A program made the translations under genes and the position numbers. From the NCBI RefSeq assembly GCF_023371205.1, contig NZ_JAMCCO010000001.1:740662-804661 (forward strand): a stretch of 64,000 nucleotides of DNA. Direction: 5' to 3'. Below the pieces are notes generated by a model. The model was not told where the DNA came from and ran no database searches. It saw nothing but the letters and a program-made list of their open reading frames with translations. The stretch is from Parvivirga hydrogeniphila. GTDB taxonomy: Bacteria > Actinomycetota > Coriobacteriia > Anaerosomatales > Anaerosomataceae. Shown piece by piece: positions 10,186-24,080 of the stretch; position 1 is the stretch's first letter, and every line of letters begins with the position of its first letter.

Positions 10186-11478
10186 CTACGCGCTCGTCTG
10201 GCGGTTCTTCGGAAGCGGCATCGCTTCGACCACGAGGTCGATGACCTGCCGCACCTGGAGCCCCAGCCCGTGAAGCTCGTTCAGGTCTTCGATCTGCAGC
10301 CGACAGTTCTCGCACGGGCACGCGAGCACCGAAGCGCCGCTCGCACGGAGCTGCTCGACCTTCTTCGTCCCGCTCTTCAGACGGACATCGCGCATCTCTT
10401 CGATCGCGACGATGCCGCCGCCTCCGCCGCAACACCACTGCTCGGCGCGGTTCGGCACGAGGTCGACGAAGTCGTCGGTGAGCGCTTTGACGACGTTGCG
10501 GGGCTGCTCGAAGATGCCGCCGTTGCGCGCGATCTGGCACGGGTCGTGGTAGGTGACCCGTCCTTCGATGCGCCCCTTCTCGACGGTGATGCGGCCTTCT
10601 TTGATGAAGCGGTCGACGACCTCCAGGATGTGGCTCACCTTGAACGGGAGCTTCTCCTGCGCCCAGGCCTCGTAGAAGATGTCAGCGACGCGGTACGCGT
10701 GACCGCACTCGGGCACCACGACCTCTCTGACGCCGAGCCGCTTCGCCTCCTCCATGAACCGTCTGGCGATGAGCTTCGCCTTCTCGGCGTCTCCGAAGAA
10801 GTAGCCGTAGTTCGAGGCCTCGAACAGCGAGATCGTCCAGTCGACGCCGGCCTCGTGGAAGATGACGGCCGCCGGACGGATGGAGTGCGCGCCCGTGAGC
10901 GCCACGTACAAGATCTCTGCCCCGTGCTTGTCCACCGGGATGACGGCCTCAGGGTCGCCGGTGATCTCGCGCACCTCGGCCTCGACGTCCTTGAAGCCAG
11001 AGACGAGCACATCACGGAACATCTCCGCATTCTCGCCCTTGAAGATCGCCGCGTCCGCGAGCTGGCCGAGCATCTCTTGTCCGCGTCCCGCCGCGATGAG
11101 TATCGCCTTGCCCACGGCGACGACCCACTGGGTGTCGATCGAGAACGGGCAGTAGTACATGCAACGACGGCATCCCGTGCACGCGTAGCAGGACTCGTAG
11201 AGCTCGTCGAGGAGGTTCTCGTCGGGGTCGCGCGCTTCGTAGAGCGCGGGCACGAACCTTCCGGCGGCGTCGAAGTACTTCTTGTAGACCTGCCGGACGA
11301 GCTCGGCGCGCCGGGCAGGCAGGTACTTCATGTCCCCGGTCCCCACGTACTGGTGGCACGCGTCCTTGCAGATCGCGCAGCGAGCACAGATGTCGAGGTA
11401 CTGCTTCAGCTGCCGGGTCATCTTCTTGTCGATGACGCCGGTGATGGTCTCTATCGTCTGCGCGTCCACGCTACTCAC
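10186..11478 (-). CDS. DsrK/HdrD-like iron-sulfur protein with CCG domains
   Basis: A 430-residue subunit of a DsrMK/HdrDE-type complex that passes electrons between a membrane cytochrome b and a cytoplasmic thiol/disulfide-like substrate. It has two ferredoxin-like cluster motifs, CARCAICKDAC (near residue 33) and CYACTGCRRCMYYCPF (near 97). It also has the CCG elements of heterodisulfide reductase: YHDPCQIARNGG, WCCGGGGG and CPCENC, which bind the non-cubane catalytic cluster. It overlaps the membrane subunit by 8 bases. With TusA and DsrE-like genes upstream, a sulfane-sulfur or persulfide redox role is likely (inference). Dissimilatory sulfite reductase subunits are not in the window. Confidence 0.85.
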   Translation of the reverse strand: MSSVDAQTIETITGVIDKKMTRQLKQYLDICARCAICKDACHQYVGTGDMKYLPARRAELVRQVYKKYFDAAGRFVPALYEARDPDENLLDELYESCYACTGCRRCMYYCPFSIDTQWVVAVGKAILIAAGRGQEMLGQLADAAIFKGENAEMFRDVLVSGFKDVEAEVREITGDPEAVIPVDKHGAEILYVALTGAHSIRPAAVIFHEAGVDWTISLFEASNYGYFFGDAEKAKLIARRFMEEAKRLGVREVVVPECGHAYRVADIFYEAWAQEKLPFKVSHILEVVDRFIKEGRITVEKGRIEGRVTYHDPCQIARNGGIFEQPRNVVKALTDDFVDLVPNRAEQWCCGGGGGIVAIEEMRDVRLKSGTKKVEQLRASGASVLACPCENCRLQIEDLNELHGLGLQVRQVIDLVVEAMPLPKNRQTSA

Positions 11479-12196
11479 TCCTCGTCAGGTTCGTCGAGAA
11501 CGCCCCGATCGCATGGACGAGCTTGCTGAACGGGAAGTACATCAAGAACAGGTCCGTGAACAGCATGTGCGTCCCGAGCGACCAGCCGACGTTGCTTGCG
11601 AGGATCTTCTCGGGGATCTGCGGCCGGAAGCGAAGGAGGCTTACGAACCACTCGCGGTAGGTGTCGGCGTGGATGGTGCCGCCGTAGATGAAACGCATGT
11701 GGTCGCCCATGACCACCACGCCCAGCAGAAGCGCGAGCAAGAGGTAGTCCTCGGGAACCGACAGGTTCTTGTACGGGCCGAACGTCCGGCGCGCGATCCA
11801 GTAGATGACCCCGACGAGCATGAGCGACCCAGCGATGGACCCGGACCACGCCGCGAACGAGTTCATGCCCTCCTCGCCGAGGATCTCCGGCAGCACCGGG
11901 AACTCAGCGAGCAGGCGGCCGTGACCGATGAATGCGCCGAGCGCGGCCACGTGGAACGCCATGGCGAAGATCCACATCGCGGGTTCGATGCGGGCCGAAT
12001 GCGGCGCAAGGAAGGTGTCCTTGAGCATCTTGGCCACGCGCCCGCCCGTGGTGGCAGGCTTCGGGAACATCCCCAGCGGGACGGGCGAGCGCGGCGTGGT
12101 CGCCCACTGGTAGACGCGCACGCCCATCCCCGCGAAGAACACGACGGCGGTCAGGTACACGCCCCACACCGCCGTGATGGCGAGGTAGGTCTCCAT
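11471..12196 (-). CDS. DsrM/NarI-like membrane cytochrome b subunit
   Basis: A 241-residue integral membrane protein with about five transmembrane helices: ITAVWGVYLTAVVFFAGMGV, IFAMAFHVAALGAFIGHG, SLMLVGVIYWIA, LLLALLLGVVVMGDHMRF and LFTDLFLMYFPFSKLVHAIG. His residues in the second helix (AFHVAALGAFIGHG) and the last (THMLF...KLVHAIG) are placed as in NarI/DsrM haem b ligands. It would connect the quinone pool to the DsrK-like subunit encoded immediately downstream. Its start is 4 bases after the tusA stop, so translation is coupled. Confidence 0.85.
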   Translation of the reverse strand: METYLAITAVWGVYLTAVVFFAGMGVRVYQWATTPRSPVPLGMFPKPATTGGRVAKMLKDTFLAPHSARIEPAMWIFAMAFHVAALGAFIGHGRLLAEFPVLPEILGEEGMNSFAAWSGSIAGSLMLVGVIYWIARRTFGPYKNLSVPEDYLLLALLLGVVVMGDHMRFIYGGTIHADTYREWFVSLLRFRPQIPEKILASNVGWSLGTHMLFTDLFLMYFPFSKLVHAIGAFSTNLTRSE

Positions 12197-12200
12197 CCGG

Positions 12201-12443
12201 CTACTTCACCCGCTTGACGAGGAACACGAACTCGTTGCCCTGCTTCTCGGCCGCGAGCACCTCGTTGCCCGTGGACTTCGCCCACGCGGGGATGTCCGCC
12301 ATAGAGCCCGGATCGGTCGCCACCGCGCGGATCACGCCGCCGACGGGCACGTTGCCGATGTTCTGGCTGACCTTCACCATCGGCAGCGGGCAGAGCAGGC
12401 CCTTCAAGTCGAGTTCCAGGTCCACTTTGATCTCCTCTGACAT
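12201..12443 (-). CDS. TusA-family sulfur carrier protein
   Basis: An 80-residue sulfurtransferase/sulfur-carrier protein of the TusA/SirA fold. The essential persulfide-carrying cysteine is in the family motif LKGLLCPLPMVKVSQ (CPxP). The product also has the typical VGGVIRAVATDPGSMADIPAWAKSTG middle section. Here it sits between a DsrE-like gene and DsrMK-like genes, which suggests persulfide relay toward the membrane complex and not tRNA thiolation (inference from context). Confidence 0.93.
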   Translation of the reverse strand: MSEEIKVDLELDLKGLLCPLPMVKVSQNIGNVPVGGVIRAVATDPGSMADIPAWAKSTGNEVLAAEKQGNEFVFLVKRVK

Positions 12444-12517
12444 CGCTGTTCCTTTCTCTCAGGCCGCGCCCGGCATCGCGCGGCGCTCCACGCGGCATCT
12501 GTGCCGCACCTGGCCTC

Positions 12518-13006
12518 CTAGATGAACAGGGTGATGTCGGCGTCTTGCGCCTTGAGCAAGAAGAAGCCGACGCCCACGGGCTCCTTGACGCCGTCGATGA
12601 ACGCGTCTTGCGGGATCTCCATGACGTCCATCGACATCTGGCATCCGTACATGTTCACGCCGAGCTGAACGGCCATGTCGCGAAGCTCGGCGAGCTTGGC
12701 GACGTTGTGGTTGCCCATCATCTTGTTGAACATCCAGCGGCCGAGCCCTGCGAAGGAGAACTTCGAGGGGTTCGCCTTCGAGATGTCGCCACCGTACATC
12801 GCCCCGAGCATCTTCCCGAACAGGGTCTTGCCCGTCCGGACGTCCTTCTTGATGGCGCGCAGGCCCCAGAAGGTGAAGAACATCGTCACGTCCATGCCCA
12901 TGGCGGCCGCGCCGTTGGCGATGATGAACGCTCCGAAGAGCTTGTCCATGTCGCCGCTCATCACCACCATCGCAAGGCTCTTCTGCTTCTCTGTCTCGTC
13001 TGGCAT
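12518..13006 (-). CDS. DsrE/DsrF/DrsH-like (DsrE2-type) sulfur-relay protein
   Basis: A 162-residue protein of the DsrE2-like group (PF13686-type). Signs are the start KSLAMVVMSGDMDKLFGAFI, ANGAAAMGMDVTMFFTFWGL, a hydrophobic FSFAGLGRWMFNKMMG stretch and the conserved single-cysteine motif VNMYGCQMSMDVMEI. The cysteine would carry persulfide to or from the TusA partner encoded 75 bases downstream. The length matches the short DsrE2 forms. It follows the ArsR gene by 17 bases in the same operon. Confidence 0.88.
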   Translation of the reverse strand: MPDETEKQKSLAMVVMSGDMDKLFGAFIIANGAAAMGMDVTMFFTFWGLRAIKKDVRTGKTLFGKMLGAMYGGDISKANPSKFSFAGLGRWMFNKMMGNHNVAKLAELRDMAVQLGVNMYGCQMSMDVMEIPQDAFIDGVKEPVGVGFFLLKAQDADITLFI

Positions 13007-13023
13007 CGCGTACCTCCTCCGTA

Positions 13024-13371
13024 TCAGCCGTCATTCTCGTTCGAAGAGCCGCTCCACGGCTCCACGGTCTTAGTCTGCGATTCGAGCGTCTCTCGCATGA
13101 CTTCGGTGATGAGGTCGAACGCCTGGACGATCTTCGGGTTCGACACGCGGTACAGCACGCGGGACCCCTCGCGGCGCGCTACGACGACGCCTTTGGTGCG
13201 CATGGTGGCGAGGTGTTGCGACACGGTCGGCTGAGGGATGCCTGTGCGCTCCACGATCTCAGAGACCGATACCTCTCCGTCGCGAAGCGCGCTCAGGATC
13301 GCCTGGCGCTTTGCGTTCGCGAGGGTCTTGCACAGGTCCGAGTGGAGGCAGAAGAACTCCTGGTCGTTCAT
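13024..13371 (-). CDS. ArsR-family winged-helix repressor of the sulfur operon
   Basis: A 115-residue (from ATG 13371) ArsR/SmtB regulator. The winged helix reads ILSALRDGEVSVSEIVERTG, then recognition helix IPQPTVSQHLATMRTKGVV and wing ARREGSRVLYRVSN. Two cysteines lie in the first helix six residues apart (FFCLHSDLCKTLAN), a plausible thiol/persulfide or metal switch. An in-frame ATG at 13395 would add eight residues, but only the 13371 start has a GAAGGCGGG ribosome site. It is the first gene of the operon and probably autoregulates it. Confidence 0.85.
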   Translation of the reverse strand: MNDQEFFCLHSDLCKTLANAKRQAILSALRDGEVSVSEIVERTGIPQPTVSQHLATMRTKGVVVARREGSRVLYRVSNPKIVQAFDLITEVMRETLESQTKTVEPWSGSSNENDG

Positions 13372-13423
13372 CGTCCCGCCTTCGAATGAGAACATGCGAA
13401 TACACGAATGTCTCTATGCGTGC

Positions 13424-13452
13424 ATCTTAAGGCGGCCTAATCATCATGTCAA
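13424..13452 (-). promoter_or_regulatory. Promoter of the arsR-dsrE-tusA-dsrMK-like operon
   Basis: On the minus strand TTGACA (13452-13447) and TAAGAT (13429-13424) flank a 17-base spacer, a near-consensus promoter. The spacer and -10 contain the imperfect palindrome TTAGGCCGCCTTAA. A related half (TTAAGCCGCC) recurs at 13501-13510, so the ArsR operator may lie here. Confidence 0.75.
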
Positions 13453-13601: not shown

Positions 13602-14348
13602 GTGGCCCTCGAGGGCAACCTCAAGGACTTCTCGCTTGCCGACATGTTCCGCCTGCTGGGTGCGGGCAGGAAGACGGGCACGCTCTACCTTGAGAGGTCC
13701 GACGCGCAAGGGAAGGTGTGCTTCAAGAAGGGCCGCGTCTTCTTCGCGTCGTCGAACTGGCATCGCGAGTCGCTCGGTCGCCGGCTGGTCAAGGCGGGCG
13801 TCATCTCGGAGAAGCAGCTGAGGCAGGCGCTCGGCCTGCAGAAGATCCAGAAGAAGGAGAAGGCCGATCGCAGGCTCGGCCAGATCCTCGTCGATGAGGG
13901 CTACCTGGACGCGAAGGTCTTGGAAAGCTTCATCCAAGACCAGATCAACGACACGCTGTTCGACCTGTTTCGGTGGGAAGAAGGGCAGCTCCGCTTCGAA
14001 CCCGATGAGACGTGCGACGAAGAGGACATCGGCATATCGGTGTCGGTCGAGAACATCATCATGGAGGCGTCGCGGCGTCTGGAGCTGTGGAGCAAGATCC
14101 GCGAGAAGATCCCGAGCATGGACACGGAGTTCGTCATGGCCTCCGCGCCCGGCGACAAGTCCATGGAGATCCACCTGAAGCCGAAAGAGTGGATGCTCCT
14201 GTGCTACATGCACGGTGGCCGATCGGTTCGTGAGCTCGTCCAGCTCACCGGGTACGACGATTTCGAGGTTGCGAAGATCCTGTACGGCATGTACGCGGCC
14301 GGCCTCATCGAGCGCGTGGACGAACAGACCAGCGCCGCGGATGCGTAG
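13602..14348 (+). CDS. PATAN/DUF4388-type protein, first gene of the chemosensory operon
   Basis: A 248-residue cytoplasmic protein. Residues 1-95 (ALEGNLKDFSLADMFRLLGAGRKTGTLYLER...GRVFFASSNWHRESLGRRLV) match the DUF4388/PATAN domain found with two-component proteins. A helical middle (RLGQILVDEGYLDAKVLESFIQDQINDTLFDLFRWEEGQLRFEP) follows, then a winged-helix-like end (GGRSVRELVQLTGYDDFEVAKILYGMYAAGLIERV). GTG 13602 is preceded by GGGAGGG. It is 12 bases before cheR. PATAN proteins often interact with receiver proteins; a partner role to the receiver at 16004 is inference. Confidence 0.75.
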   Translation: MALEGNLKDFSLADMFRLLGAGRKTGTLYLERSDAQGKVCFKKGRVFFASSNWHRESLGRRLVKAGVISEKQLRQALGLQKIQKKEKADRRLGQILVDEGYLDAKVLESFIQDQINDTLFDLFRWEEGQLRFEPDETCDEEDIGISVSVENIIMEASRRLELWSKIREKIPSMDTEFVMASAPGDKSMEIHLKPKEWMLLCYMHGGRSVRELVQLTGYDDFEVAKILYGMYAAGLIERVDEQTSAADA

Positions 14349-14360
14349 GAGCAGGCGCTC

Positions 14361-15932
14361 ATGAGCGAGTGGTCCGGCTCGAAAGACCTCACCTACGAGG
14401 AGTTCGTGCGATTCAGGGACTTCATCCACGCCGTCTCTGGCATCTACATGGAGGACCTGAAGCAAGACTCGCTCCGCATCTCGTTGGTGACGCGGGCGAC
14501 CCGCTTGGGGCTGTCGAGCTTCGACGAATACTTCTCGGTCCTGGAGCGCGACGAGCACGAGCTCAACGAGCTGCTCAACCTCGTCACCATCAACGAGACG
14601 AGCTTCTTCCGGTTTCCCCAGCAGTTCGAAGCGCTCCGCACGCGGGTGCTGCCCGAGATCATGGCGAACAAGCCCGACACGAACAAGACGATCAGGGTCT
14701 GGTCGGCCGGCTGTTCCACCGGCGAGGAGCCCTACTCCATCGCCATGACGCTCATCGACGCGGGCATCATCTCGCTGGGGTGGCGCGTCCAGATCCTTGG
14801 AACTGATGTCTCCACGAGGGCGCTCAGCGTTGCGAAGAAGGGCGAGTACCCGAAGCGGTCGCTCCTGAACGTTCCGAGCGAGGTCATCGCTCGGCACTTC
14901 GAGCCCGTTCCGAACGGGTATGCGGTCGCTCCGCACGTGCGCTCGCTCGTCGACTTCGGCTACCACAACCTCATCAAGGAGCCGTATCCCCTGGCGCTCA
15001 TGGGCAACTGGGACATCATCTTCTGCCGGAACGTGACCATCTACTTCAAGCTGGAGTCCACGAAGCGCGTGGTGGCGAACTTCTACAACAGCCTGAACGA
15101 GGGTGGATACCTGTTCATCGGGCACTCTGAGACCCTGTCGCAGATCAACGACCAGTTCGAGGCGGTCGAGATCGGCGGCGTGTTCTTGTACCGGAAGCCG
15201 AAAGCGCGTCGCGGCGTCGGGCTCTCGTCGAGGCGGCCGTCCGCGCCTGCCGCGCCGCCCGTGGAGCCGGTGGTGCCGAAACCGGAACGGCCGCAGCGAG
15301 CAGCGGAACGGCGAACCGAGCACGCGGCGTCCCGGCGGACGCAGGGGACGACGAAGCGCCCGAGCGGATCGGAGGCGCGCCGTCCTGCGAGGAGCGCATC
15401 GACCTCGCCAGGCTCGAACACCGATGCGGTCGCGGCGGCCCGGCGCGCGTTGGAGGAGGGCCGGATCGCGGAGGCCCTCGAGCTTGCGCACCGAGCGGTC
15501 GGCGAGGACGCGAACAACGCGGAAGCGCACCTCATCGCCGCGCACGTGCACGCGGACGCCGGAGACTACGACGCGGCGCTCGAGTCCTGCCATCGCGCGC
15601 TTGCGATCAACCCGCTGCTTCCGTCTGCGCGCTACATCCTCGGGATCATCTACCAGCGGCAAGGCGACGCGGTCCGGGCGATCAGCGAGTTCAAGAAGAC
15701 GGTGTACATCGACGACACGTTCGCGCTTGCCCACCTCAACCTCGCCAACATATACAAGAGCCAGCGGAAGTGGGACATGGCCGCGAAGGAGTACGAGAAC
15801 GCGCTGAAGGCCCTGTACAAGAACCCGGAAGGAGCGTGGACGGAGTTCTTGGGCGGGTTCAAGCTCGATTTGCTCGCGAAGACGTGCGAGCGCAGTCTGC
15901 TAGAGTGTCGGAAGGCCATGGGCGTCGCATAG
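14361..15932 (+). CDS. cheR: CheR methyltransferase with C-terminal TPR repeats
   Basis: A 523-residue protein. The N-terminal CheR all-alpha domain and the methyltransferase domain carry NLVTINETSFFRFPQQFEAL, the S-adenosylmethionine loop VWSAGCSTGEEPYSIAM, ILGTDVSTRALSVAKKGEYP and WDIIFCRNVTIYF. A Pro/Arg-rich linker (about 275-355) leads to three TPR units (365-470), e.g. AEAHLIAAHVHADAGDYDAAL and AHLNLANIYKSQRKWDMA. CheR-TPR forms recruit receptor complexes through the TPR part and are common in alternative (pilus or cellular-function) chemosensory systems. The MCP at 19402 shows no C-terminal CheR-tethering pentapeptide, so TPR-based docking is plausible. Confidence 0.92.
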   Translation: MSEWSGSKDLTYEEFVRFRDFIHAVSGIYMEDLKQDSLRISLVTRATRLGLSSFDEYFSVLERDEHELNELLNLVTINETSFFRFPQQFEALRTRVLPEIMANKPDTNKTIRVWSAGCSTGEEPYSIAMTLIDAGIISLGWRVQILGTDVSTRALSVAKKGEYPKRSLLNVPSEVIARHFEPVPNGYAVAPHVRSLVDFGYHNLIKEPYPLALMGNWDIIFCRNVTIYFKLESTKRVVANFYNSLNEGGYLFIGHSETLSQINDQFEAVEIGGVFLYRKPKARRGVGLSSRRPSAPAAPPVEPVVPKPERPQRAAERRTEHAASRRTQGTTKRPSGSEARRPARSASTSPGSNTDAVAAARRALEEGRIAEALELAHRAVGEDANNAEAHLIAAHVHADAGDYDAALESCHRALAINPLLPSARYILGIIYQRQGDAVRAISEFKKTVYIDDTFALAHLNLANIYKSQRKWDMAAKEYENALKALYKNPEGAWTEFLGGFKLDLLAKTCERSLLECRKAMGVA

Positions 15933-16003
15933 CGCCCACGCTGTAGAGCGGCCGCGTTCTCGCCGATAACAGGCGCAAGCGGCAGGCACGGAGGGAGATG
16001 CTG

Positions 16004-16384
16004 ATGGCGGCACGGATACTGGCGGTGGACGACAGCCCGACCATCCTCGAGATGATCAAGGCGATCCTCGAGTCGGGCGGGTACGAGGTCATCACCGCGT
16101 CCGACGGCAACGAGGCGCTCGAGAAGGCGCGCGGCGAGCACCCAGACCTCATCCTGCTCGACGTCATGCTGCCGAAGCTCGACGGCTACCGCGTGTGCCG
16201 TCTGCTCAAGTTCGACCAGAACTACAAGGACATCCCCATCATCATGCTGACCGCCAAGACGGAAGAGCAGGCGATGGCGACGGGCATCCGCACCGGTGCG
16301 GACCAGTACCTCACCAAGCCCGTGGAGCCCGACACCTTGCTCGCAGCTGTCGCCGAGGAGCTGGGCAAGGCGAAGGGTCAGTGA
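16004..16384 (+). CDS. Single-domain response regulator (CheY/PilH-like)
   Basis: A 126-residue receiver domain. It has the acidic pair in ILAVDDSPTIL, phosphoacceptor Asp in LILLDVMLPKLDGYRV, the Thr switch in IIMLTAKTEEQ and Lys in YLTKPVEPDTLL. The GYRVCRLLK and NYKDIPIIMLTA segments resemble PilG/PilH and polar-development receivers. ATG 16004 is favoured over ATG 15998 because GGAGGG at 15990 is then well spaced. It is the only stand-alone receiver in the operon, so it is the likely output or phosphate sink of the hybrid CheA. Confidence 0.92.
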   Translation: MAARILAVDDSPTILEMIKAILESGGYEVITASDGNEALEKARGEHPDLILLDVMLPKLDGYRVCRLLKFDQNYKDIPIIMLTAKTEEQAMATGIRTGADQYLTKPVEPDTLLAAVAEELGKAKGQ

Positions 16385-16389
16385 CGGCG

Positions 16390-18231
16390 ATGATCGATCC
16401 GGCGAGCATCGCGGGCCGCGTGCTGGACAGCCTGGCTTCAGCGGGGCTGCTCACCGTGGAGCAGATCGCGGCGTTGGACCAAACGGCGCAGTCACGCGGC
16501 GAGACCATCGCCACGGTGCTGCGCGAGAGCGGGTTCGTGCGGTCATCGGACATCGCCTCGGTGCTCGAGCACGAGATGGGCGTTCCGCGCGTGGACCTCT
16601 CCAGCTACGCGCCTGAAGAGTCAGCTTTGCGCATGGTGCCTGCCTCTGTGGCGGTTTCGCGCCGCATCCTGCCGCTGTTCGAGATCGAGGGTATGCTCAC
16701 CGTTGCGATCGGCGAGCCGTTCGACGTGTTCTTGCTGGACGACCTCGCACGCGAGCTGGGGGTCGAGGTCGAGCCCGTGCTCGCGGAGCCGGACGCGATC
16801 GTGGCCGCGTTGCAGCAGCACTACGGCAGCGCGCAGCACGCTCCGGAGCCTGTCTCGGCGCCGGCGAGCGAGACGCCGCCGCCCGCTCCTGTCGCGGAGC
16901 AGCCTGCGGTGGCCGCGTCGGACTTTTTCGAGGAAGAGGCCGGCCCTGTCGCGCCGGTCGTCGCCGCTGCTCCAGCGGCCGAGCCAGCGGCGAAAGCCGA
17001 GCTGAGCGGCGAGGCGATCGAGCGGATGGCAGAAGGCCCGGCTGCCGAGTCGTCCATCGATCTGGACGTCCTAGCGGTGGCCGACGCGCGCAAGGTCGCC
17101 GTGCTCGTTACGCAGATCTTCGAGCTTGCCGTCGCCCAGAAGGCATCGCAGATCCATCTGCTGCCATACAAAGACGACTTCTTCTTGGTGTTGCGCGTCG
17201 CCGGCGCTCTGGAGAAGGTCGCAAGCGCTCCGTTATCGCTGCAAGGCGCGCTCGCCGAGGGCTTCCGGGCGTTCGTCAAGGCCCCGCCAGGGCCGGTGTC
17301 AGGTCCCTCGCTCGCGCGGTCCGCCGTGCGCATCGGGGAGCACGACCTCGCAGTGACGCTCTCCTCGGTGCCCACCGTCGCCGGGCAACGCCTCGTGGTG
17401 TCCCTCGAGCCGCGCCGGCGCGAGCCCAAAGGGCTGGACGCGCTCGGCATGACAGACGCCGAGGTGCGCGCGCTGCACGCGATGGTGGAGCGCGGGCGCG
17501 GCATGCTGCTCGTGTGCGCCCCCGTTGCGTCCGGTGCGAGCTCCACGTACTACGCGCTTCTCGCCCACGCGGCATCGGCCGGCAAGACCGTCTACTCCGT
17601 CGAGCACGCCGTGGCGTACGAGATCCCTGCCGTCGCGCAGGTCATGGTGGACGCGTCGTCGCCGGTGCCCGCTGCGAACTACTTCGCGGCAGGGCTCAGG
17701 CAGGACACGGACGTGGTCGCCATCGACGGTATACGCTCGGTCGAAGACGTTCACCTCGCCGTCGAGGCCGCGGGCATGGGCAAGCTGGTCGTGGCGACCT
17801 TCCCGGCCGCCGACATCGCTTCGGGCGTCCGGCGGTTGCTCGACCTCGGAGTCGAGCCGCACAGCCTGGCGCAGGCGCTCACGCTCGGCGTGGGGCAGCG
17901 GCTCGTCCGGCTGAACTGCCCCAACTGCACCCAGGAAGTGCCGAGCCAGGCGCTCGCCCTGCTGCCCGGCGGCACGCCGGAGATCGTGAACAAGGCCGGT
18001 CTCGGGTGTCCGAACTGCAACAAGACGGGATTCCGTGGCGCGGTGGGCATCTTCGAGGTCTTGCCGTTCACGGAGCCGCTCCGCGCACGGGTCGCGGCGT
18101 CGGCCTCGGCCGACGAGCTCGCTGATGCGGCAGCAGCAGCGGGGATGCGTTCGCTGGCGGAATCAGGGCTGGCCCGCGTGCGTGCGGGCCAGGTGAGCGC
18201 AGACGAGCTCGCGCGCGTCTTGCGGATCTAG
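16390..18231 (+). CDS. PilB/GspE-like protein with degenerate ATPase motifs (predicted pseudo-ATPase)
   Basis: A 613-residue protein. The N-terminal MshEN-type domain (about 5-145) is followed by an Ala/Pro/Glu linker (about 145-220) and a type II/IV secretion ATPase-like region. The fold is tracked by KASQIHLLPYKDDFF, LDALGMTDAEVRALHAMV, RLLDLGVEPHSLAQAL, GVGQRLVRLNCPNC and CPNCNKTGFRGAVGIFEVLP; the four-Cys zinc site is kept. The P-loop reads APVASGASST (377-386) where GPTGSGKTTT is expected, so the Lys is lost. The Walker B/Asp box reads DVVAIDGIRSVED without the Glu, and the His box reads TFPAADI. Active ATP hydrolysis is unlikely. GTG 16381, overlapping the receiver stop, is an alternative start. 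Confidence 0.82.
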   Translation: MIDPASIAGRVLDSLASAGLLTVEQIAALDQTAQSRGETIATVLRESGFVRSSDIASVLEHEMGVPRVDLSSYAPEESALRMVPASVAVSRRILPLFEIEGMLTVAIGEPFDVFLLDDLARELGVEVEPVLAEPDAIVAALQQHYGSAQHAPEPVSAPASETPPPAPVAEQPAVAASDFFEEEAGPVAPVVAAAPAAEPAAKAELSGEAIERMAEGPAAESSIDLDVLAVADARKVAVLVTQIFELAVAQKASQIHLLPYKDDFFLVLRVAGALEKVASAPLSLQGALAEGFRAFVKAPPGPVSGPSLARSAVRIGEHDLAVTLSSVPTVAGQRLVVSLEPRRREPKGLDALGMTDAEVRALHAMVERGRGMLLVCAPVASGASSTYYALLAHAASAGKTVYSVEHAVAYEIPAVAQVMVDASSPVPAANYFAAGLRQDTDVVAIDGIRSVEDVHLAVEAAGMGKLVVATFPAADIASGVRRLLDLGVEPHSLAQALTLGVGQRLVRLNCPNCTQEVPSQALALLPGGTPEIVNKAGLGCPNCNKTGFRGAVGIFEVLPFTEPLRARVAASASADELADAAAAAGMRSLAESGLARVRAGQVSADELARVLRI

Positions 18232-18246: not shown

Positions 18247-18822
18247 GTGCCTCGGAAGAAGAAGACGGCAGAAGACGTGAAGCCCCGCGACGAAGCAGGC
18301 GCCGTGCCGGATGTTCGCGCGACCGCGGAAGGCGGTCACGGCGACGCGTGCGAAGTCCCGTGGGCCCGGCTCGGTGCAGCGGTCGGGCGCGTCGTCGTGT
18401 TCTCGCTCGACGGTCAGCGCTACGCGCTGCCGATCGAGGACGTCCAGGAGATCCAGCAGGTGGTCGAGTTCGCGCCGGTTCCTGACGCGCATCCGGCGTT
18501 GCTGGGGATGGTGGACGTGCGCGGCATCGTGACGCCGGCGGTGGACATGGGCGTGCTGCTTGGGCTCGGGAGGCGCGAGATCCGTCTCGAGACCCCCATG
18601 ATCCTGTTCTTGAGCAGGAAGCGCCTGATCGCAGCGGTCGTCGACGAGGTCGACGACGTGTTCGAGGTGCCGCCGATGTCGCTGCAGGCGCCGTCCGACC
18701 TGTACTCGCTCAAGGACACGATGATCGGTGTGTGCAAGATCGGTGACGAGCTGGTCATCGTGCTCGACCCCGACCGGCTCGTGCCGAGCGGCATCTCGCA
18801 CGACGGAGAAGGAAGGCCGTAG
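18247..18822 (+). CDS. cheW: CheW-like coupling protein (first copy)
   Basis: A 191-residue CheW with an unusual charged N-terminal extension of about 45 residues (RKKKTAEDVKPRDEAG...). The SH3-like core reads RVVVFSLDGQRYALPIEDVQEI, LLGMVDVRGIVTPAVDMGVLL and LIAAVVDEVDDVFEV. It links the MCP to CheA. GTG 18247 has GGAGG 9 bases upstream. Its stop is 2 bases from the next cheW, and the two copies differ enough to be distinct adaptors. Confidence 0.88.
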   Translation: MPRKKKTAEDVKPRDEAGAVPDVRATAEGGHGDACEVPWARLGAAVGRVVVFSLDGQRYALPIEDVQEIQQVVEFAPVPDAHPALLGMVDVRGIVTPAVDMGVLLGLGRREIRLETPMILFLSRKRLIAAVVDEVDDVFEVPPMSLQAPSDLYSLKDTMIGVCKIGDELVIVLDPDRLVPSGISHDGEGRP

Positions 18823-18824
18823 CG

Positions 18825-19376
18825 ATGGAGCGTCTGGACGAGCGGGCCGGCGTGGACGAGCAGGTGCGGAGGATACTTCGCGAGCGTGCGGAGTCGTTGG
18901 CGCAAGCGGAGTCCGAAGAGCATGCGGTAGAGACCCGAGGACTCCTCCTGTTCCGGCTCGGCGAGGAGACCTACGCGGTGGGCGTCGAAAGCGTCCGGGA
19001 GATCGTCAACGGCTTTTCTGTGACGCGCATCCCCTGCGTTCCTGCTCACGTGCTGGGCGTCATCAACGTGCGCGGCGAGATCGTGTCGGTGATCGACCTC
19101 GCTGCCGTGCTGAACGTGGGCTCCTCAGCAGGGCGCTCGCGCGAAGAAGAGGAGGGAAGCGGCATCATCGTCCGCTCCGAAGACGTGACGGCGATGCTGG
19201 TCGTCGACGAGATCGGCGACATCATCGACGTCCCCATGGCATCGGTGGAGCCACCGCTCTCAGCGCTCGACCGCGCGCACGCGGAGATGGTGTCAGGGAC
19301 CGTGTACCAGAACGGACAGCTCGTCGCGATCGTCAACCTTGCTCGCATCCTGCAGCCGATCGGCGAGGCGGCATAG
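18825..19376 (+). CDS. cheW: CheW coupling protein (second copy)
   Basis: A 183-residue CheW. After a helical N-terminus (about 1-38) the core is close to canonical: [63 protein letters not shown] and [14 protein letters not shown]. It has the conserved Arg-Gly (NVRGE) used for receptor/CheA binding. It sits between the first cheW and the MCP, 25 bases before the latter. Two CheWs plus the CheW-like domain of CheA suggest a multi-ring array. Confidence 0.93.
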
Positions 19377-19401: not shown

Positions 19402-20628
19402 ATGTTCAAGAACCTCGTAGAGAAGGTGCGCACGACCTTCCTGCTCAAGTACTCGCTCGTCAACTTCGCGCTAATCGCCGTCGTGAACACGGTGCAGCTC
19501 GTCGTCGCGTGGCTCGTGTTCAAAGACGTTCTTGCGCGAAGCGAGAACCTCGTCACGCAGGCAGCGATCGTGGTGGGCACGTTCTTGATCATGCTCGTCG
19601 TGTTCATCTACGTCTACATCCAGATCGGCAAGCGCTTCATGGCGCCGCTCGGCCTGGTGGCATCGAGCGTGAAGGCCGCCTGCGAGGGCGAGATCGGGCA
19701 CAAGGTCGACGTCGATTCGCCTGACGAGTTCGGGGTGCTCGCCCGCTCGTACAACCAGATGCTCGACCTCATCATGTACCTCGTGACGCAGACGCAAGAG
19801 TCGTCCAGCCGGCTTGCCGGTGCGGCGGCCGAGATCATGTCTGCGACAGAGCAGCAGGCGTCCGGGGCAGCGGAACAGGCGGCGTCGATCGCTCAGACGA
19901 CGGCGACCATGGAAGAGCTCGCAGCGACCTACCGGCAGATCGCGGAGAACGCGGACCAGGTGGTGCACCTCGCCGAAGCGTCGCTCGGGAGCGCGGAGTC
20001 GGGGCAGCAGGCGGTCGCCAACACCCTTCAGGCGATGGAGCAGATCAAGGTGCGGGCGCAGGCGTCGGCGAACAAGATCATGCAGCTCGGCGAGCGGAGC
20101 CAGCACATCGGCCAGGTGCTCACCATCATCAACAACATCGCGGACCAGACGAAGATCCTCGCGCTGAATGCGGCCATCGAGGCGGCGCGGGCAGGAGAAG
20201 CGGGCAAGGGGTTCTCGGTGGTCGCAGTGGAGATCCGCAAGCTGGCGATGTCGGTGGTCGATTCCACCCGCGAGATCGAGACGATCATGACCGAGATCCA
20301 AAGCGCGGCGAACGACCTGGTCATCTCCACCGAGCAGGAGCTCAAGCAGGTGAGCCAGGGCGTGGACTTGGCGCAGGTCACGGGCGACAGCTTCGAGCAG
20401 ATCCTGCACGCCATCGAGCAGACTGCGGTCGCGGCCAAGGAGATCTCCGCTGCCACCCAGCAGCAGCGAAGCGCCACCGACCAGGTGGTCAAGGCGATGC
20501 GCGAGGTCGCTGCCGTCGCTCAGCAGACCGCTGCAGGAAGCAAGCAAGTGGCCGCAGCAGCCGAGCAGCTCTCGCAGATCGCGCGGGAGTCGAGCCAGGT
20601 CGGCGCGGCATTCCGGCTGGTGCGATAG
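19402..20628 (+). CDS. Methyl-accepting chemotaxis protein with minimal extracytoplasmic loop
   Basis: A 408-residue receptor. Two hydrophobic segments (about 18-39 and 53-74) are separated by only about a dozen residues, so there is no periplasmic ligand domain. A HAMP-like section follows ([20 protein letters not shown]...[14 protein letters not shown]), then the long signalling coiled coil with hairpin tip [22 protein letters not shown] and [10 protein letters not shown]. Input must come from within the membrane, the cytoplasm or a partner protein, as in pilus-type PilJ systems without sensor domain (inference). ATG 19402 follows AGGAGG at 19391. Confidence 0.92.
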
Positions 20629-20660: not shown

Positions 20661-23012
20661 ATGGTCGACTTCGACCGCTCGGCATTCATACACAAGTTCC
20701 AGGAGGAGGCCGCCGAGTACCTCCAACGGCTCAACGAGGGCGTGATCACGCTCGAGGGCGACCCGAAGAACCGGGAGCTCATCGACCAGATGCTCAGGGA
20801 CGCCCACACGCTCAAGGGGTCGTCGAGGATGGTCGGCCTGCTCGAGATATCCGACATCGCGCACCGGCTCGAAGACATCATGGTGAAGGTCCGCGACGGC
20901 GAGATGGCGTACGACCCGAGCATGTCGGACGCGTTCTTCGAGGCGCTCGACGCCATCGTCTTTCTGAAGGACAACGCCGGCAAGGACATCGCAGGCCAGC
21001 TGGACGTACCGGCCCTGCTGGACCGCCTTGCCGCGGTCGCGGGCGGCTCGCACGAAGAGGAGCCGCCTGGCGATGCGACCGCTGTACCATCTCCCGAGGC
21101 GCACGCCGAACCTCAGCCGACGAACCCGGCTCCCGGATCGCCGGCGACCACGGCCCCCGAGCCGCCGCCGGCCGCGGCAGCCGAGGAGCCGCAGCCGGCG
21201 CCTGCTGCGCCCGCAGAGCGCGCTGCGGGAACCGACCAGCAGCACGTCGAAGAGAAGCTTCAGGCGCGCGTCCAGCAGACGGTCCGCATCCGCACCGAGC
21301 AGGTCGACCGGCTCTTGAACCTCGTGAGCGAGGTCGTCATCTCTCAGATCAAGGCGGAGCAGCACGCGCGCGACCTTCGCGGGGCGCAGGCGCTTGCGAC
21401 GGACCTGTACCAGGCGTGGCGCCGGGTGAGCGCGGCGATCGCGTTCGAGCAGCAGTCCGGTCTCGCCGCAGTCTCCGACGACCTCGCGATCATCGACGAG
21501 ATGGTAGGCGAGCTCAGGACGCGCATGACGCAGATGCTCAAGGAGTACTCCGAGGAGGTCTCTCGCGCGTCGACAGTCGTCGGGGATCTCCAAGAGCACA
21601 GCATGGCCATCCGCATGCTGCCGGTCTCGACCGTCTTCAACGCGTTCCCGCGGGCGGTGCGGGACCTGGCTCGCCAGTTCAAGAAGGAAGTCGACCTCAT
21701 CATCGAGGGCGGCGACACCGAGCTCGACAAGAAGGTGCTCGAAGAGATCAACGACCCGCTCATCCACATCATGCGAAACGCCGTGGACCACGGCATCGAG
21801 CCTTTGCAGCGGCGCCGTGAGCTCGGCAAGCCCGAGAAGGGCACCATCAGGCTCGCGGCGCGCCAGGAGGGCGACCACATCGTCATCGAGATCTCCGACG
21901 ACGGCGCCGGCATCGACCCGGCCGCGGTGAAGGCCGCTGCGGTCCGCAAGGGCTATATCACCGAGAGCGAAGCGAAGTCCATGTCCGACCGAGAGGCCAC
22001 CTACCTCATCTTCGAGGCCGGCTTCTCCACGAGTCCGATCATCACCGAGATCTCGGGCCGGGGTGTCGGCATGGACGTGGTCCGGGAGTTCATCGTCGAC
22101 AAGCTCAAGGGCTCGCTGGACGTCGAGAGCAGGCCAGGAGAAGGGACGACGTTCCGGCTCACCATCCCGCTCACGCTCGCCATCATCCGCGCGCTGCTGG
22201 TGCGCGTAAGCGGCCAGCTGTTCGCGATACCGACGGCATCGATCGAAGAGACGCTGCGTATCGATCCGGCCGAGGTTATCAAGGCGGAGGGCCGGGAAGT
22301 CATCCGGCGGCAGCGCCGCACGATCCCGCTCGTGCACCTGCGCGACGTGCTCGGCCTCCCGGTCGACGAGGACACAGAGCCGGGGAAGCTGCCGGTCGTG
22401 ACGATCGGTTTCTCGGGCCACCGGATGGGCTTCCTGGTGGACGCGTTCGTCGGCGAGCAGCAGATCGTGATCAAGACCCTCGGCTCGCATCTCAAGCACG
22501 TCGACAACGTGGCGGGCGTGACGATCCTCGGTGCAGGCGAGGTCGTGCCCATCCTGAACGTGCCCGACTTGATGGCGAATGCGCGGCGCATGACCGGCAG
22601 GTCGAGCGGCCGGACGCACGTCAAGCCCGAGAAGGAGCAAGGGCCGCGCACGGTGCTCATCTGCGAGGACTCGTTCACCACTCGCGAACTGGAGCGCTCG
22701 ATCTTCGAAGCGGCCGGCTACGTCGTACAGACTGCGACAGACGGCGCGGCGGGCCTTACGAAGCTGCGCGAAGGGCTGAAGGTGGACGCCGTCGTCACCG
22801 ACGTGCAGATGCCGAACATGACCGGGTTCGAGCTCACGCGGGCGATAAAGAGCGACGACGCCCTCAAGGAGATCCCGGTCATCATCGTCACCTCGCTGGA
22901 GCGCGAGGAGGAGAAGGCCGAGGGCATCGAGGCGGGCGCAGACGCCTACATCACCAAGTCGGTGTTCAACCAAGACACGCTGCTCGACACCGTCGAGCGT
23001 CTCATCCGGTAG
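20661..23012 (+). CDS. cheA: Hybrid CheA histidine kinase with C-terminal receiver
   Basis: A 783-residue kinase. The HPt domain carries the phospho-His in LRDAHTLKGSSRM (His49). A Pro/Ala/Glu-rich linker (about 125-195) replaces a clear P2 domain. Dimerisation helix: IRTEQVDRLLNLVSEVVI. The HATPase part has the N box HIMRNAVDHGIEP, G1 SDDGAGID and G2 GRGVGMDVVREF. A CheW-like domain follows (LLVRVSGQLFAIPTASIEETL), then a receiver (TVLICEDSFTTREL, VTDVQMPNMTGFEL, YITKSVF). All catalytic boxes are intact. A fused receiver is typical of FrzE/ChpA-type systems that control motility machines or other outputs. Confidence 0.95.
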   Translation: MVDFDRSAFIHKFQEEAAEYLQRLNEGVITLEGDPKNRELIDQMLRDAHTLKGSSRMVGLLEISDIAHRLEDIMVKVRDGEMAYDPSMSDAFFEALDAIVFLKDNAGKDIAGQLDVPALLDRLAAVAGGSHEEEPPGDATAVPSPEAHAEPQPTNPAPGSPATTAPEPPPAAAAEEPQPAPAAPAERAAGTDQQHVEEKLQARVQQTVRIRTEQVDRLLNLVSEVVISQIKAEQHARDLRGAQALATDLYQAWRRVSAAIAFEQQSGLAAVSDDLAIIDEMVGELRTRMTQMLKEYSEEVSRASTVVGDLQEHSMAIRMLPVSTVFNAFPRAVRDLARQFKKEVDLIIEGGDTELDKKVLEEINDPLIHIMRNAVDHGIEPLQRRRELGKPEKGTIRLAARQEGDHIVIEISDDGAGIDPAAVKAAAVRKGYITESEAKSMSDREATYLIFEAGFSTSPIITEISGRGVGMDVVREFIVDKLKGSLDVESRPGEGTTFRLTIPLTLAIIRALLVRVSGQLFAIPTASIEETLRIDPAEVIKAEGREVIRRQRRTIPLVHLRDVLGLPVDEDTEPGKLPVVTIGFSGHRMGFLVDAFVGEQQIVIKTLGSHLKHVDNVAGVTILGAGEVVPILNVPDLMANARRMTGRSSGRTHVKPEKEQGPRTVLICEDSFTTRELERSIFEAAGYVVQTATDGAAGLTKLREGLKVDAVVTDVQMPNMTGFELTRAIKSDDALKEIPVIIVTSLEREEEKAEGIEAGADAYITKSVFNQDTLLDTVERLIR

Positions 23013-23030: not shown

Positions 23031-24080
23031 ATGGCAGCGACGCCCGTGAGGGTGCTGGTGGTCGACGACTCGCTCGTCGCGCGGGAGATGCTCACACAGA
23101 TCCTGCAGAGCGATCCGGGCATCGAAGTCGTCGGGGTGGCCTCCAACGGCGCGGAGGCCGTCGAGGCGGTCGCGCGGCTGAAGCCCGACCTCGTGACGAT
23201 GGACATCCACATGCCGAAGATGGACGGCATCACGGCGGTGGAGCAGATCATGGCGTACACGCCGACCCCGATCCTTGTGGTGTCCTCGTCCGTGCACGGC
23301 GAGGGGGTCGGGCGTGCGTTCGACGCCTTGGCGGCCGGCGCGCTCGAAGTGATGAAGAAGCCGGAGCCGCGCGATTGGGCGGAGCTGGACCGCATCGCGG
23401 CCGAACTGATCCGCAAGGTGAAGCTGCTGTCGCGTGTCCGGGTCATCACGCACATCCGCGGACGCCGGGCCAGCGGTCGTCCAGCCGCTCCTACGCCCGT
23501 CCCGGCGCGGCAGCCGGGGACCGTCTCGCTCGTGGCGGTCGGCTCCTCGACGGGCGGGCCGTCGGCGCTCATGAGCGTGCTCGCTCCGCTTCCTGCCGAT
23601 TTCCCGGTGCCGATCGTCATCGCGCAGCACATCGCGGAGGGCTTCGTCCCGGGGCTCGTGAGCTGGCTCGACGCAGCGTGCAAGCTCACGGTTCGTGCGG
23701 CGGTCGATGGTGAGACGGTGCAGCCGGGGAACGCCTATCTCGCCCCGACCGGTCTGAACCTTGCAGTCGATACGCTCACGCTGCGCTTCAAGAAGCCTGG
23801 CGAGCGGCAGCTGTACATCCCGTCGGCCGACACGCTCTTCGAGTCCGTGGCCAAGACGCACGGCGCAAGTGCAGTCGGCGTGCTGCTCACAGGCATGGGC
23901 GACGATGGCGCGCGCGGACTCAAGTCGCTGTACGACACCGGCGCGCTCACGATCGCGCAAGACGAGGCGACCTCGACGGTGTTCGGGATGCCGAAGGCCG
24001 CCATCGAGATGGGAGCGGCGCGCAAGGTGCTTCCCGTCCAGCAGATCGCCGATGCGCTGAAAGCGGCGGTGCGCGCGTAG
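23031..24080 (+). CDS. cheB: CheB protein-glutamate methylesterase
   Basis: A 349-residue CheB. The receiver is VRVLVVDDSLVAREML with Asp in VTMDIHMPKMDGI. A linker follows, then the methylesterase domain with catalytic Ser in AVGSSTGGPSAL, His in IVIAQHIAEGF and Asp in LLTGMGDDGARGL. It reverses CheR methylation of the MCP and is controlled by CheA phosphotransfer. A GGGGGAGG site precedes ATG 23031. It is the last gene of the operon; murI begins 35 bases later with its own -10 element. Confidence 0.96.
   Translation: MAATPVRVLVVDDSLVAREMLTQILQSDPGIEVVGVASNGAEAVEAVARLKPDLVTMDIHMPKMDGITAVEQIMAYTPTPILVVSSSVHGEGVGRAFDALAAGALEVMKKPEPRDWAELDRIAAELIRKVKLLSRVRVITHIRGRRASGRPAAPTPVPARQPGTVSLVAVGSSTGGPSALMSVLAPLPADFPVPIVIAQHIAEGFVPGLVSWLDAACKLTVRAAVDGETVQPGNAYLAPTGLNLAVDTLTLRFKKPGERQLYIPSADTLFESVAKTHGASAVGVLLTGMGDDGARGLKSLYDTGALTIAQDEATSTVFGMPKAAIEMGAARKVLPVQQIADALKAAVRA

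Follow-up and report, generated by a model that had tools for sequence, protein, structure and literature searches.

The window, a 64,000-nucleotide stretch of the Parvivirga hydrogeniphila genome, encodes on its forward strand a chemosensory operon in which a relative of the pilus motor ATPase PilB sits among che genes. The first gene (13602..14348, with a conserved start at 13602 in an open reading frame that begins at 13446) encodes a protein with a DUF4388 domain (Pfam, E = 4.6e-34), which we take to be the PATAN domain. It is followed by a CheR methyltransferase with TPR repeats (14361..15932; Pfam CheR, 1.4e-57, and TPRs), found at the same place in relatives, and by a CheY-like single-domain response regulator (15998..16384; Pfam Response_reg, 1.2e-31) that ends 5 bases before the gene under study, hereafter pseudo-PilB (16390..18231). 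Two CheW-like proteins come next (18247..18822, Pfam CheW 4e-29; 18825..19376, Pfam CheW 1.3e-32), then a chemoreceptor (MCP; 19402..20628) with two adjacent transmembrane helices, a HAMP domain and a signalling domain, as judged from Pfam and from N-terminal hydropathy in relatives. A CheA kinase with a C-terminal receiver (20661..23012; Pfam Hpt, HATPase_c, CheW and Response_reg) and a CheB methylesterase (23031..24080; Pfam CheB, 3.4e-61) complete the conserved operon. In the relatives examined, the transmembrane helices of the MCP lie a few residues apart. The loop between them has no room for an external sensor domain, and the input to the array therefore probably comes from the cell interior or the membrane.

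The first-pass annotation had suggested looking for the same gene order in related genomes. We found it fixed at every informative locus, as PATAN/DUF4388-CheR-CheY-pseudoPilB-CheW-CheW-MCP-CheA-CheB, usually followed by MurI, a metallo-beta-lactamase-fold protein and RNase PH. Upstream, the reverse strand (10186-13006) carries genes that we read from their sequence as an iron-sulfur heterodisulfide-reductase-like protein, a membrane protein and a DsrE-like protein, and an ArsR-type regulator lies at 13024-13395; this block (10186-13395) stays upstream of the operon in many relatives. CheA, CheW, MCP, CheR, CheB and CheY are encoded together, and the genome has a locus with PilB, PilC, PilT and prepilin peptidase. 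A search of this one genome (G000) for a single flagellar family, FliG, returned no match and hence no sign of flagella there. By its gene set and this pattern of pili without FliG, the operon fits a chemosensory system of the type IV pilus (Tfp) type.

Pseudo-PilB runs in a clean frame from an ATG at 16390 to a stop that ends at 18231, and encodes 613 residues. An MshEN domain (residues 1-148; 16390..16833) and a disordered linker (149-222; 16834..17055) precede the N2D and CTD of a PilB ATPase whose catalytic residues are lost. Both Pfam matches are far over their cut-offs (T2SSE, E = 3e-57, 194 bits against a cut-off of 24.9; MshEN, E = 9e-20), which places the protein in the PilB/GspE family. 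The best solved structure by sequence is 6olj (phmmer, E = 5.8e-70), and the predicted fold matches 5tsh and 5oiu (Foldseek, TM up to 0.86 on the target, probability 1.00), bearing out the ATPase-fold landmarks first noticed in the sequence. By sequence and by predicted fold alike, the nearest solved proteins are PilB of Geobacter and PilB/PilF of Thermus, which argues for descent from PilB. The protein also groups with PilB, not PilT, in the tree, and shares with active PilB the MshEN-N2D-CTD order, the fold and the four-cysteine zinc site. It differs in lacking the Walker A Lys, the Walker B Glu, the His box and several conserved Arg, and in being encoded among che rather than pil genes. The AlphaFold2 model has a mean pLDDT of 84, with low values in the linker (149-208, <50) and in the former P-loop (380-382, <50), where the CTD is modelled with the least certainty. 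A short DFFE-like motif in the linker was considered as a general conserved docking motif and dropped, as it occurs in about half of the orthologs and is missing in several families.

The nucleotide-binding site had been described as ruined, with motifs reading APVASGASST (377-386), AIDGIRSVED (444-453) and TFPAADI (470-476). An alignment of 42 pseudo-PilBs, including the window protein, to which the others are mostly 54-89% identical, upholds this description, with some refinements. In the former Walker A (377-384, APVASGAS; 17518..17541), the window protein has Ala383 in place of Lys, and the Lys is absent in 42/42 (R in 19, A in 14, S in 6, G in 3), so that GxxxxGK[ST] is matched by none. 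In the former Walker B (442-450, VVAIDGIRS; 17713..17739), the canonical Gly-Glu reads D446-G447, and the Glu is replaced in all 42 sequences (G in 26, S in 9, P in 3, T in 2, A in 2). The His of HTND is likewise absent from every former His box (470-476 in the window protein; 17797..17817). Other residues have been kept. The zinc site (C510, C513, C540 and C543, with the stretch between; 17917..18018) was rightly called preserved, its CxxC...CxxC cysteines being invariant across the alignment. Also present in 42/42 are QDTD (D439, D441), D446, G382, a Ser or Thr at 384 and the Asp-box Glu E405 (17602..17604), around which the D, P and E of EDPxE are altered. The pseudo-PilBs even share a new P-loop consensus, LVCAPVAGGxSxTYYAL. 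Out of 105 positions conserved in nine active PilBs, pseudo-PilB keeps 49; the share is 15/40 in the P-loop, Asp, Walker B and His boxes, and 7/9 in the zinc region. Arg residues conserved in active PilB are largely replaced at 267, 304, 323 and 338. The nucleotide site is thus remodelled, neither wiped out nor random.

Such a rebuilt site might still bind nucleotide without hydrolysing it, its occupancy altering signalling. The strict conservation of D439, D441, D446, G382, E405 and Ser/Thr384 would suit a sensor of this kind, as would the Arg that takes the place of the Lys in about half of the sequences (19/42) and the retention of both Lys and Walker B Glu in same-operon relatives from another class. 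Set against this are the Ala, Ser or Gly at the Lys position in the window protein and 22 others, and the low certainty of the P-loop in the model. We consider a nucleotide sensor improbable as the main role, while some residual binding may persist, especially in members of the Arg type.

The loss of three catalytic motifs, and a frameshift inside the gene in one assembly, could also be taken as signs of sequencing error or of a decaying gene. The same losses recur in 42 orthologs from many assemblies, which rules out sequencing error, and open frames, fixed gene order and a dN/dS of about 0.1 rule out a pseudogene; we give this explanation practically no credence. Compared with two congeners, dN/dS was 0.08 and 0.12 for the whole gene, 0.06 for the CTD and 0.28 for the linker, against 0.03 for the operon CheY. 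Pseudo-PilB is under purifying selection. The mid-gene frameshift (L077:10001-11829, genome G003) is probably an assembly error, because both halves are conserved. Close homologues with intact Walker motifs, which would have pointed to an error in the window, were sought and none was found; the same-operon relatives that keep Lys and Glu are at ~35% identity or less.

We then considered how widely the gene is distributed. Among 61 genomes from the genus, the family and the order, whose members are pili-bearing subsurface bacteria, 54 carry pseudo-PilB. In two of the seven genomes that gave no match, true gene loss was rejected, since contigs end there instead: what is left of the operon is the CheA-CheB end in G036 and the PATAN-CheR end in G053. 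The remaining five (G026, G037, G040, G041 and G059) have neither pseudo-PilB nor the operon CheA, G026 and G041 being less complete assemblies. G040, the best assembled of them at 99% completeness, nevertheless retains a pilus locus with active PilBs, Roadblock, PATAN, an MglA-like GTPase and PilC. As genomes without the operon CheA lack the gene while G040 keeps its pilus locus, pseudo-PilB is inherited with the che operon, not with the pilus genes. In a phylum-wide sample of 397 genomes, two stand out beyond the order, G303 (443 bits) and G365 (521 bits), both from one other class (2/36 of its genomes). They show the operon order of the window, with the CheB end seen in G303 and the G365 contig stopping in CheA. 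A local oddity is ruled out by this spread through the order and by the recurrence of the operon in G303 and G365.

These two distant relatives help to order the losses. Their PilB-like proteins (APHNSGKT...GIDEI and GPVHAGKT...GLDEI) have the Walker A Lys and the Walker B Glu, and have already lost the His box. Because G303 and G365 share the operon yet retain Lys and Glu, the simplest reading of the sequences is that a PilB-like gene first joined the operon and later lost these residues on the way to Anaerosomatales. When a tree was built from the ATPase part, the pseudo-PilBs fell into one clade (98/99) on stems of 1.42 and 2.58 changes per site, with tips within the order that are short by comparison (0.05-0.5 changes per site), as would be seen if function had shifted and constraint had then set in again. 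The two distant relatives (L079 and L098 in the tree) join as long branches whose placement is unsure and may reflect long-branch attraction, so their kinship rests more on the shared operon.

The first-pass annotation had gone on to propose an adaptor that perhaps senses c-di-GMP through its MshEN domain. A Pfam MshEN domain is indeed present, and the genome encodes GGDEF proteins (12 matches over the cut-off). MshEN receptors are recognised by two 24-residue motifs with Arg, Gly, Leu and Gln, which pseudo-PilB does not carry: the motif I Gln is Ala in 41/42 sequences, the motif II Gln is Glu or Asp in 41/42, and the motif I Gly is Leu in 41/42. Both ligand-contacting Gln and the first motif Gly are therefore gone from nearly all orthologs. 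A relaxed form of the motif matched 0/42 pseudo-PilBs, a figure to be read beside its single match among the nine active PilBs compared; as the pattern misses most active PilBs too, the case against sensing rests more on the loss of both Gln and of the Gly. Imperfect MshEN motifs can bind c-di-GMP (PMC5013675). Overall, we regard c-di-GMP sensing by pseudo-PilB as very unlikely. What stands of the earlier proposal is a fixed, probably non-hydrolysing member of a Che operon, under purifying selection, in genomes with type IV pili.

The PATAN protein encoded at the start of the operon, to which the first-pass annotation did not refer, is a better candidate for c-di-GMP binding. It carries tandem MshEN-like motifs, SLGRRLVKAGVISEKQLRQALGLQ and RLGQILVDEGYLDAKVLESFIQDQ, and is highly conserved in relatives (mostly 78-94% identity). 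Among 34 such PATANs, 32 have one or more matches to the relaxed published motif, and 27 have two when the first position is left free. The best match to its AF2 model is MshE with c-di-GMP (5htl; rmsd 1.5 A over 60 columns, 42% identity, E = 0.016, Foldseek probability 1.00). Pfam finds no receiver domain in it. A second PATAN/DUF4388 protein with MshEN-type c-di-GMP motifs is encoded in the pilus locus of the same genome (L125:9477-11333, reverse strand), and the two are 54% identical. This paralogy means that a PATAN gene stands with working PilBs at one locus and with the dead PilB at the other. Work on Synechocystis shows PATAN regulators binding to PilB1, with PixG binding PilC as well (PMC12288463).

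The genome that holds the window encodes three active PilBs and two PilT-like proteins. Its pilus locus (L125; G000:C2:78000-97000) reads PilB-Roadblock-PATAN-MglA-like GTPase-PilB-PilT-PilC-prepilin peptidase, and the pilus loci of G303 and G365 keep this order through PilC. The set of Roadblock, PATAN and MglA-like GTPase between two active PilBs recurs in G303, G365 and G040. Such an arrangement suggests a polarity module of the MglA/MglB kind wired to pili. The genome also carries a second chemosensory cluster (L124; G000:C1:486000-503000), with CheR, MCP, CheW, CheB, CheA, CheC and CheD followed by a GAF-GGDEF protein. A few genes beyond the latter lies an intact PilT-like ATPase, in a genome without a FliG match. 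Cultured Anaerosomatales are described as non-motile though piliated, and one of them, Parvivirga hydrogeniphila, produces pili only in the presence of insoluble ferrihydrite (PMC9686372), which makes a surface-linked control of pili plausible in the group.

Our preferred reading, to which we give about an even chance of being right, is that pseudo-PilB is a PilB-derived pseudo-ATPase locked in a nucleotide-free-like state that docks Che components with the pilus base. Without ATP cycling, the protein would be held in one such shape and act as a docking piece. It would still carry the PilB surface that PATAN regulators recognise, and would connect CheY, PATAN and the CheA/CheW/MCP array to the base of the pilus, so that the active PilB/PilC complex would report to the array, or be controlled by it, through pseudo-PilB. 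The array would then take in pilus state through pseudo-PilB and c-di-GMP through PATAN. The shape, the partners and the direction of the signal are ones we infer, and the link from Che array to pilus motor is drawn from gene order and precedent.

The closest precedent is found in Myxococcus xanthus. There, PilB K327A does not hydrolyse ATP and does not support motility, but gives a gain-of-function EPS signal upstream of the Dif chemosensory proteins; E391A is not gain-of-function, and the authors proposed nucleotide-free PilB as the signalling form (PMC5544727). The window protein has Ala383 at the K327 position and Gly447 at the E391 position, with the same 64-residue spacing. Because the window protein has this K327A-like change of Lys to Ala, a locked shape of the signalling type seems to us the most likely one. 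Several points weaken the docking reading. In M. xanthus the signal is assigned to normal PilB and the molecular path from PilB to Dif is not known, and cultured Anaerosomatales are described as non-motile, although they bear pili. Contacts with the pilus base may have changed as well, given the Arg replacements noted above. A bolder version, in which an array devoid of external sensors has a built-in ring of PilB pseudo-ATPase that, as a frozen motor copy, would read the state of the pilus base directly, the motor family serving as its input module, appears rather doubtful to us.

Pseudo-PilB could instead be a brake subunit. At PilC it would either assemble with active PilB or compete with it, yielding mixed or blocked hexamers, with the Che proteins setting the timing; the target would then be the motor and not the array. 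The retained PilB fold, zinc subdomain and many C-terminal residues would allow this, the genome offers three active PilBs as partners, and PilT/PilU provide precedents both for motor ATPases used in combination and for ATPase-dead subunits with a function (PMC11656802). It fits less well with the replacement of several active-PilB Arg and with inheritance alongside the che operon rather than with PilB or PilC. We hold a brake to be unlikely, somewhat less so than a nucleotide sensor or a built-in ring. It is a serious rival all the same, and sequence alone does not separate it from docking.

Compared with known systems, the parts are of familiar kinds, namely the PilB family and a pilus-type chemosensory system, and the combination appears to be new: a naturally inactive PilB fixed in a che operon. 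The accessory pilus motor ATPases PilU and TfpB resemble pseudo-PilB as second motor-family proteins beside the main motor but, to our knowledge, keep their nucleotide sites. Pil-Chp and the cyanobacterial Pix/Hmp/Tax systems likewise use CheA, CheW, MCP and CheY to control type IV pili, a role read here from the genes, and we know of no PilB-family pseudo-ATPase among their components. The Synechocystis systems also have PATAN regulators, which there bind PilB (PMC12288463); the operon PATAN differs from the Pix/Hmp/Tax type in the missing receiver. M. xanthus PilB/Dif is alike in that a PilB with Lys changed to Ala, a poor ATP binder, signals through a chemosensory pathway (PMC5544727); that PilB is a laboratory mutant of a working motor, whereas pseudo-PilB is a separate, naturally inactive paralog in a che operon. 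The first-pass annotation knew of no chemosensory system with a dead PilB as a component, and we too found no paper on one in a search of openly available papers.

How contact with a surface is passed on from pili to chemosensory arrays is still an open question in the field. A natural dead PilB that is separate from the working motor and belongs to a single che operon makes signalling by the PilB fold testable apart from pilus assembly, and the relatives of another class that retain Lys and Glu provide a series for ordering the loss of the enzyme. If their binding is real, PATAN proteins of the kind encoded here would be c-di-GMP receptors at the pilus. Altogether, this suggests that in Anaerosomatales an old pilus motor has been turned into a signalling part.
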